A stretch of 64,000 bases of DNA. It comes from Oscillatoria sp. CS-180. GTDB lineage: Bacteria; Cyanobacteriota; Cyanobacteriia; Phormidesmidales; Phormidesmidaceae. The stretch is from assembly GCF_028330965.1 (NCBI RefSeq), contig NZ_JAQMUB010000101.1, positions 62,001-126,000 on the forward strand, read 5' to 3'. A program made the translations under genes and the position numbers. A model generated the notes under the pieces. The model worked only from the letters and a program-made list of their open reading frames with translations, was not told where the DNA came from and searched no databases. This document shows positions 47,989 to 49,568 of this stretch, piece by piece; the stretch's first letter is position 1, and the number at the start of each line of letters is the position of its first letter.

Positions 47989-48011
47989 AAAAAAGCCAGC
48001 TTTAAGCTGGC
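47989..48011 (-). terminator. Intrinsic terminator, minus strand
   Basis: Reading the minus strand, GCCAGC-TTAAA-GCTGGC is followed by TTTTTTG. It closes the transcript of the 59-codon gene at 48031-48210. Confidence 0.85.
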
Positions 48012-48030: not shown

Positions 48031-48210
48031 TTAAGGATTAGAGTGCTCACCAGGTTTATAAGTCTTCGTCCAACATCTTTCTAAATGTGCTAGACGGTGG
48101 TAGTGCTGAAATGTCCAAGGATTAAGCCTGGTTTTGTAATGAGAGCTAAAAACAGGTTGTTTTAGGTAAGCCCAAAACGGAAATTTTAGAGAGTCATGTC
48201 GAGGATTCAT
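48031..48210 (-). CDS. Small unlisted gene, 59 residues
   Basis: A 59-codon frame from ATG to TAA just below usual length cut-offs. It starts MNPRHDSLKFPFWAYLKQPV and continues with FSSHYKTRLNPWTFQHYHRL and AHLERCWTKTYKPGEHSNP. It is rich in Trp, Tyr, His and Arg, has no transmembrane helix, and is not a low-complexity sequence. It is followed 20 bases later by an intrinsic terminator on the same strand, while a separate terminator ends ssrA upstream, so it is its own transcription unit. No strong Shine-Dalgarno: GAGG is 12 bases or more before ATG. Function not recognised. Confidence 0.6.
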   Translation of the reverse strand: MNPRHDSLKFPFWAYLKQPVFSSHYKTRLNPWTFQHYHRLAHLERCWTKTYKPGEHSNP

Positions 48211-48314
48211 GACAAATAGAAAACCTCAATTTTTACAGTAGAGATAATGGCCTTATCACTGCCGCATCGACCATGAACGACAGCGCTGTGTATCTCAGTA
48301 TAAACATGCCCAAA

Positions 48315-48343
48315 ATCTAGAGTTCGCCCAACAAACTCTAGAT
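48315..48343 (-). terminator. Terminator of ssrA
   Basis: On the minus strand ATCTAGAGTT-TGTTGGGCG-AACTCTAGAT is a perfect 10-bp stem followed by TTTTG, 40 bases after the tmRNA end. Confidence 0.8.
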
Positions 48344-48382: not shown

Positions 48383-48765
48383 TGGAGCCGACGGGAGTCG
48401 AACCCGTGTCCGTTTCGAGTAGTAACACTCCATTCATTCACAGACTTAGCCTATCTCACCCTCTAGGCGGGAATCGCTAATTATCCCTAGCGATGGGATT
48501 CTCTAGTAGAGTCTTAGCCTGAAGAACCACCAGAGAGATTCTTCAGGAGCATCCGTTGGGGTTTGTCCATGATCCTTAACGGAGTCAAATCACAGACGCT
48601 CGTCAAGTGTTTTGATTAAGCAGCAACAGGTGCAGCTTTACGAGCAAAAGGAACGATGTTGTTCGCAGTTACGTTTGTTTTGAGCCTGGATTTACGAGAG
48701 TAGACTCCCTCTCGGTCTGCATCACAAAGTGACTTTCGTCAAAACGTCGAAACCGTTACGGCCCC
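48383..48765 (-). ncRNA. ssrA: Transfer-messenger RNA (tmRNA)
   Basis: One-piece tmRNA of about 383 bases. The 5' end GGGGCCGTAACGGTTTCGACG and the 3' end with GGTTCGACTCCCGTCGGCTCC form the tRNA-like acceptor (GGGGCCG with CGGCTCC) and the T-arm. The tag reading frame at 48616-48666 encodes ANNIVPFARKAAPVAA, then TAA. tmRNA rescues stalled ribosomes and marks the incomplete protein for degradation. CCA is not encoded. The coordinates of both ends are from base pairing, so accurate within about one base. Confidence 0.97.
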
Positions 48766-49130: not shown

Positions 49131-49568
49131 ATGGCTACTCAGAACGAAGCAACAAACGAGCAACCCACCGCTAAGTCCAGCAGTGGGTCAACAACCAAGA
49201 AAACGACGACGAGTAAGACAACTCAGTCTAAGAACAGCATTGTTAAAGCAGATGAGAAGGACAACGGCGAAGTTGTATTCGTTTTAGACGATTCTACTCG
49301 TATTGCGCCAACTGAGTATCTGCCCAACCACCGCCCCATTGCTCTAAGCGAGTTTACGGTTGTCGGTAGCTTGGATATGGCCGGCGATCGCCCCATCATG
49401 GCGAATGGGTTTGAGGTTGCGACCACTGATTTGCTACCTGGACATCGTCCCGTAGCAGTCAGCACCCTTCCTATTTCTGATCTCAACTTCCTACCGGGTA
49501 ATCGTCCTATTGCATCGAACGACGTCGTTGATCCAACCCCTTCTATTTTGATGGGCTATCTTGACTAA
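49131..49568 (+). CDS. Cyanobacterial RPI-repeat protein, unknown
   Basis: 145 residues. The first 45 are Thr/Ser/Lys-rich and disordered. The rest is four units of about 18-20 residues centred on LPNHRPIALSEFTVVGS, MAGDRPIMANGFEV, LPGHRPVAVSTLPI and LPGNRPIASNDVV, ending LMGYLD. Each unit has the core (G/N)(H/D/N)RP(I/V). I recall proteins of this pattern as widespread in cyanobacteria with no function known. GGAAGAGG precedes the ATG. It is convergent with rpmA across a perfect palindrome. Confidence 0.82.
   Translation: MATQNEATNEQPTAKSSSGSTTKKTTTSKTTQSKNSIVKADEKDNGEVVFVLDDSTRIAPTEYLPNHRPIALSEFTVVGSLDMAGDRPIMANGFEVATTDLLPGHRPVAVSTLPISDLNFLPGNRPIASNDVVDPTPSILMGYLD

Follow-up and report, generated by a model that had tools for sequence, protein, structure and literature searches.

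The stretch of DNA analysed here, referred to as the window, covers 64,000 nucleotides of a contig of the cyanobacterium Oscillatoria sp. CS-180. Its minus strand carries ssrA and, downstream of it, a small gene of 59 codons with a putative promoter element upstream and an intrinsic terminator behind its stop (Table 1). The frame runs from an ATG to a TAA and encodes a basic protein of 59 amino acids (pI 9.9) that belongs to a group of mini-proteins defined here as the LERCW family.

Table 1. Features of the small-gene locus in the window, and the fusion proteins of the same family found in other genomes
Feature	Position in the window	Strand	Basis
ssrA (tmRNA, tag ANNIVPFARKAAPVAA), same-strand neighbour upstream	48383..48765	(-)	
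Hairpin (CTAGAGTT, loop, AACTCTAG) in the spacer between the promoter element and ssrA; weak T run	48317..48341	(-)	genus alignment
Conserved element read as an extended -10 promoter, TGTTTATACT	48297..48306	(-)	spacer alignment, motif scan
59-codon protein-coding gene, LERCW mini-protein family member (MNPRHDSLKFPFWAYLKQPVF...LERCWTKTYKPGEHSNP)	48031..48210	(-)	homologues, alignment, dN/dS, tree
Intrinsic terminator of the small gene (GCCAGCTTAAAGCTGGC then TTTTTTGTT)	47995..48011	(-)	terminator scan; 19 bases past the stop
DUF4278-LERCW fusions: L200, L204, L205, L226, L227, L229, L231, L236, L238, L241, L242, L265			

The length of the frame was rejected as proof of a gene, since an ATG frame at least as long turns up in 133 of 1000 dinucleotide-shuffled versions of the spacer (13%). 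A chance frame is excluded by conservation. Indeed, a protein search of whole genomes finds open-frame homologues in 45 of 59 relatives, and a profile search finds them in 171 of the 291 genomes of the class, the other 120 being without the gene. All five other genomes of the genus carry a homologue with an intact frame (60-67% identity), and the best match (69%) is L010, from a sister genus. The Nei-Gojobori dN/dS ratio is about 0.05-0.2 in pairs with usable dS; in particular, pairwise dN is 0.014-0.24 against a dS of 0.09-1.3 in unsaturated pairs, as in L013/L015 (dN 0.05, dS 0.97) and L019/L020 (dN 0.018, dS 0.335). The sole broken copy linked to ssrA, L036 (G014:C74), belongs to another genus and has a single-base deletion beside an A run, before AAAAATGCTGG; the remainder of its coding sequence is readable in the shifted frame, and the deletion may be an assembly error. 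The idea that the frame is not a gene, having arisen by chance or belonging to a non-coding RNA downstream of ssrA, can draw on the 13% of shuffles and is already refuted by the class-wide conservation of the protein at a dN/dS well below 1, which leaves it a negligible probability. The first-pass annotation had proposed a real small gene beside ssrA, not due to chance, and had pointed to homologues, dN/dS and disruptions in close relatives as the checks; the homologues and the dN/dS agree with it, the frame is uninterrupted in the five genus genomes and in most of the taxonomic family, and a conserved promoter element lies upstream. That the frame is a real gene is therefore close to certain.

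Two residues, Gln18 and Cys46, never vary across 71 aligned sequences, and F10, P11, W13, L16, P19, F21, P31, F34, L43 and E44 hardly do, giving the family pattern FPLWxYLxQPxF - NPxxFW - LERCW. The window protein has all the elements by which we define the family, namely the FPLWxYLxQP helix, NPxxFW, LERCW and the invariant Q18 and C46. In the AlphaFold2 model (core pLDDT about 90, pTM 0.56) a short helix (residues 12-16) is packed on a 20-residue helix (31-50) that ends in LERCW. Foldseek searches of the PDB with two models returned no match at E<=10, and the window protein has no match in Pfam, NCBIfam, PHROGs or PDB sequences. Weak matches to MG010, LST1 and DUF2709, each involving one or two members only, were judged to be chance. 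None of these searches pointed to a relative of known function, by structure or by sequence. The family is very probably one for which no curated model exists.

Alignment of the spacers between ssrA and the small gene brought out the motif TGNNTATACT, which is present in 28 of 30 ssrA-linked loci of the window's taxonomic family (25 of 27 linked loci, plus three loci whose contigs do not reach ssrA). All 68 unlinked loci lack it; chance alone would give 0.7 occurrences over the 71 loci scanned. Its distance to the ATG is mostly 88-115 nt. This distance is kept in L019, L022, L032, L034 and L130, despite a grown spacer on the ssrA side, and the motif can thus be assigned to the small gene. Judged by its letters, it would be an extended -10 promoter, with a predicted transcription start at about 48290 and a leader of about 80 nt. 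It is accordingly highly likely that the small gene has a promoter of its own.

At the other end of the gene, the same-strand terminator that had been claimed about 20 bases past the stop is confirmed as a perfect hairpin, GCCAGCTTAAAGCTGGC, followed by six T. A similar GCCAGC...GCTGGC-T6 hairpin lies downstream of the orthologues L010, L013, L014 and L015, and no such hairpin was found downstream of L011 and L012. The first-pass annotation had also placed a second terminator towards ssrA, and this stands in part: the hairpin is there and is kept in the genus alignment, but its T run (ATTTTGG) is weak and the terminator scan did not list it. It is probably the terminator of ssrA.

On every contig of the window's family that has ssrA in range, the small gene follows downstream of it, on the same strand and at a distance of 160-580 bp. 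The exception is genus g13, in which no ssrA occurs within 5 kb and the convergent neighbour, CHAT-domain-like by eye, stays. The linkage is also present in two genomes of family f24 (L124 and L131). In a tree of the family, built on few alignment columns and with most deep forks unresolved, the ssrA-linked genes cluster, with 3 label changes versus 24.9 in shuffles. The linkage is an old local arrangement. Orthologues outside the window's family have various neighbours, among them the genes for sulfite reductase and zeta-carotene desaturase, dnaE, and genes resembling Coq4 and RodZ; apart from Coq4, these were assigned by eye. Since these relatives sit elsewhere and the gene has its own promoter, ssrA is probably merely a neighbour. 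A search for literature on a cyanobacterial gene downstream of ssrA found nothing relevant; the synteny offers a simple means to find and annotate the orthologue. A 145-aa ORF divergent from ssrA (49131-49568, plus strand) is kept on that side of ssrA in 24 loci; it has repeated LPGHRP/LPNHRP motifs and no Pfam match.

In a phylum-wide sample all solid matches fall within the same class, and one match outside it is weak (E 2.8e-4). The genomes without the gene include those of family f2 (1.7-1.9 Mb). Genomes hold multiple divergent paralogues, and the neighbours of members that are not beside ssrA are diverse. Longer paralogues of 70-116 aa repeat the LERCW-like helix end and adjoin genes of transport and stress, assigned by eye (RND pump, Na+/H+ antiporter, HlyD/ABC, iron permease, UspA). 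Five paralogues of 100-116 aa (L055, L062, L064, L066, L068) have two or three LERCW-like motifs and adjoin RND efflux pump and Na+/H+ antiporter genes. A phage or plasmid origin was also considered, and no match was found.

The clearest clue to function comes from family f39, in which the domain is present in 27 of 27 genomes. Besides standalone copies, 12 proteins in 10 of these genomes fuse the LERCW domain to DUF4278 or to its YRG repeat, with the layouts DUF4278-LERCW-YRG or LERCW-YRG; the DUF4278 (PF14105) match of L200 has an E value of 1e-11. A glutamine riboswitch (RF01739) lies directly upstream of eight fusions, at 55-59 bits for a cut-off of 35, and a ninth is seen by motif, for a total of 9 of 12. 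Typical gifB-like genes with the same riboswitch share genomes with the fusions, and gifB-like or other DUF4278 genes with a glutamine riboswitch occur in f39 as well as in the window's own genome. The fusions are apparently undescribed members of the glutamine-responsive gene set. In IF17, the glutamine synthetase inactivating factor encoded by gifB (PMC6316151), DUF4278 represents the N-terminal part, and the glutamine riboswitch switches on synthesis (PMC6316151, PMC11288750). Being fused to DUF4278 behind this riboswitch, the LERCW domain of f39 sits where the glutamine synthetase-inhibiting tail would be. As IF17 can inhibit without its DUF4278 part (PMC6316151), the fusion speaks for a shared regulation and not for a shared target.

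The link to nitrogen rests on these fusions, which so far come from f39 alone, because neither a glutamine riboswitch nor an NtcA-type site was found at the window gene, and standalone genes have NtcA-type sites upstream no more often than chance predicts (7 of 100, expected 7.3). Standalone members likewise have no glutamine riboswitch above chance. A second type of DUF4278 tail, VFDSMAAARRxLLQE...RRSLERR, different from the IF7-like tail, occurs in L212 (in the window's own genome, C70:50341), L251, L253 and L259, with a glutamine riboswitch in L212 and L259; it is possibly another effector module on the DUF4278 chassis.

Collectively, we read the locus as a gene transcribed on its own, and its product as a basic, helical protein of 59 residues from a cyanobacterial family not described before; we infer this protein to be of the small-protein regulator kind. 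With the mechanism included, the probability of this statement is roughly 0.45. As to the mechanism, the small protein would act by binding to a partner protein, for which an enzyme or complex of central nitrogen or carbon metabolism is the most likely candidate. The contact would be made via the short FPLWxYLxQP helix and the long helix ending in LERCW, and binding would alter the activity or stability of the partner, as with the glutamine synthetase inactivating factors. The ssrA-linked form would be made from its own promoter, and the DUF4278 fusions when glutamine is plentiful. A role as a protein-binding metabolic regulator is favoured tentatively, at somewhat less than even odds; the best clue to it, though not a proof, is the f39 fusions with the domain in place of the inhibitory tail. 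A rather more doubtful extension is that the LERCW domain represents a new class of exchangeable modules by which small proteins inhibit cyanobacterial nitrogen/carbon metabolism. It would either stand by itself under its own promoter (next to ssrA in one lineage) or be carried by a DUF4278 chassis under a glutamine riboswitch, and its LERCW helix would be a docking motif also employed by the nif-linked Asr1405 family.

Among the alternatives, the least improbable is that the protein serves a photosynthetic or respiratory complex, as a small accessory subunit or as an assembly factor. Its FPLWxYL helix would then rest on the membrane or within a groove of a protein, and its LERCW end would contact a cofactor protein. 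Small basic aromatic-rich proteins are common in photosystems, and the strictly invariant Cys and Gln, together with the near confinement of the family to one class (apart from the single weak match elsewhere in the phylum), are consistent with this. We consider it unlikely, given that the gene is missing from two-fifths of the class genomes (120 of 291), f2 included, that genomes have several divergent paralogues, and that fusions under glutamine control are ill-suited to a structural subunit.

A protein tied functionally to ssrA, acting in trans-translation or as a Clp adaptor, for instance in the delivery of tagged proteins, is suggested by the same-strand linkage conserved through the window's family and in the two f24 genomes. 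It is quite improbable: orthologues lie away from ssrA in other families as well as in one genus of the window's own, the CHAT-domain-like neighbour stays where ssrA does not, ssrA is near-universal and the small gene is not, and the gene has its own promoter and paralogues near unrelated genes. Even less probable is a role in a toxin-antitoxin or stress system, as a toxin or a membrane-active peptide, for which the small size and the neighbours of the paralogues (RND pumps, antiporters, iron permease, stress genes) could be adduced; the gene has no partner gene and no antisense RNA call, and it occupies a single stable chromosomal locus with vertical descent and no phage or plasmid copies.

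The reading as a small-protein regulator adds to the cyanobacterial small proteins a class-wide family of 50-60 residues that is invisible to curated models, in a group of which several tested members proved to control key enzymes. The fusions behind glutamine riboswitches further predict a role of the domain in the glutamine-sensing response, where the glutamine synthetase inactivator IF17 has a shown role.

Other small cyanobacterial proteins offer terms of comparison. AtpTheta/Norf1, CP12, PirA and AcnSP bind enzymes or complexes (PMC5126843, PMC9241938 and general knowledge) and can be likened to the LERCW family by the mode of action proposed for it, although no curated model matched the family. 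NirP1 regulates an enzyme by binding and has one invariant Cys and conserved Trp (PMC10907346). However, NirP1 has 76-86 aa, three invariant Trp, four predicted strands and an NtcA site (PMC10907346), whereas the LERCW family has 50-61 aa, a helical model and only Gln18 and Cys46 invariant.

The small proteins of NF045598 (Asr1405/Asl0597), of which asr1405 belongs to a nitrogen-fixation gene group (PMC2821919, PMC5862535), also end in a helix with LExCW. Profile comparison aligns the terminal 14 columns only, at a probability of 81%, a short match that was noticed after the fact. The remainder of NF045598, RWxxYxRLQELxIPCxC..., has no counterpart in the LERCW family, the window protein scores below the curated cut-off (35 bits), and the true members in its own genome are three other loci (L183, L184, L185), so that both kinds exist there as separate genes. 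LERCW as a genome-wide motif was also tried and rejected: of 14 tryptophan-ending places read in that genome, those that fall in a small protein and have LExCW close to the C-terminus belong to the window protein and the three Asr1405-family proteins, the rest being chance-looking frames or unrelated longer proteins. The LExCW end common to both families could be a docking motif that they share, or a coincidence.

A close parallel is also offered by IF17 (GifB), which consists of DUF4278 and an IF7-like tail and is, like the window protein, a small basic cyanobacterial protein. The LERCW domain has no recognisable IF7-like tail, and the window gene differs from IF7/IF17 in its lack of DUF4278 (no Pfam match), riboswitch and NtcA-type site. 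Within the LERCW family DUF4278 occurs in the f39 fusions only, and it is these fusions that share with IF17 both the DUF4278 N-terminus and the glutamine-riboswitch leader.
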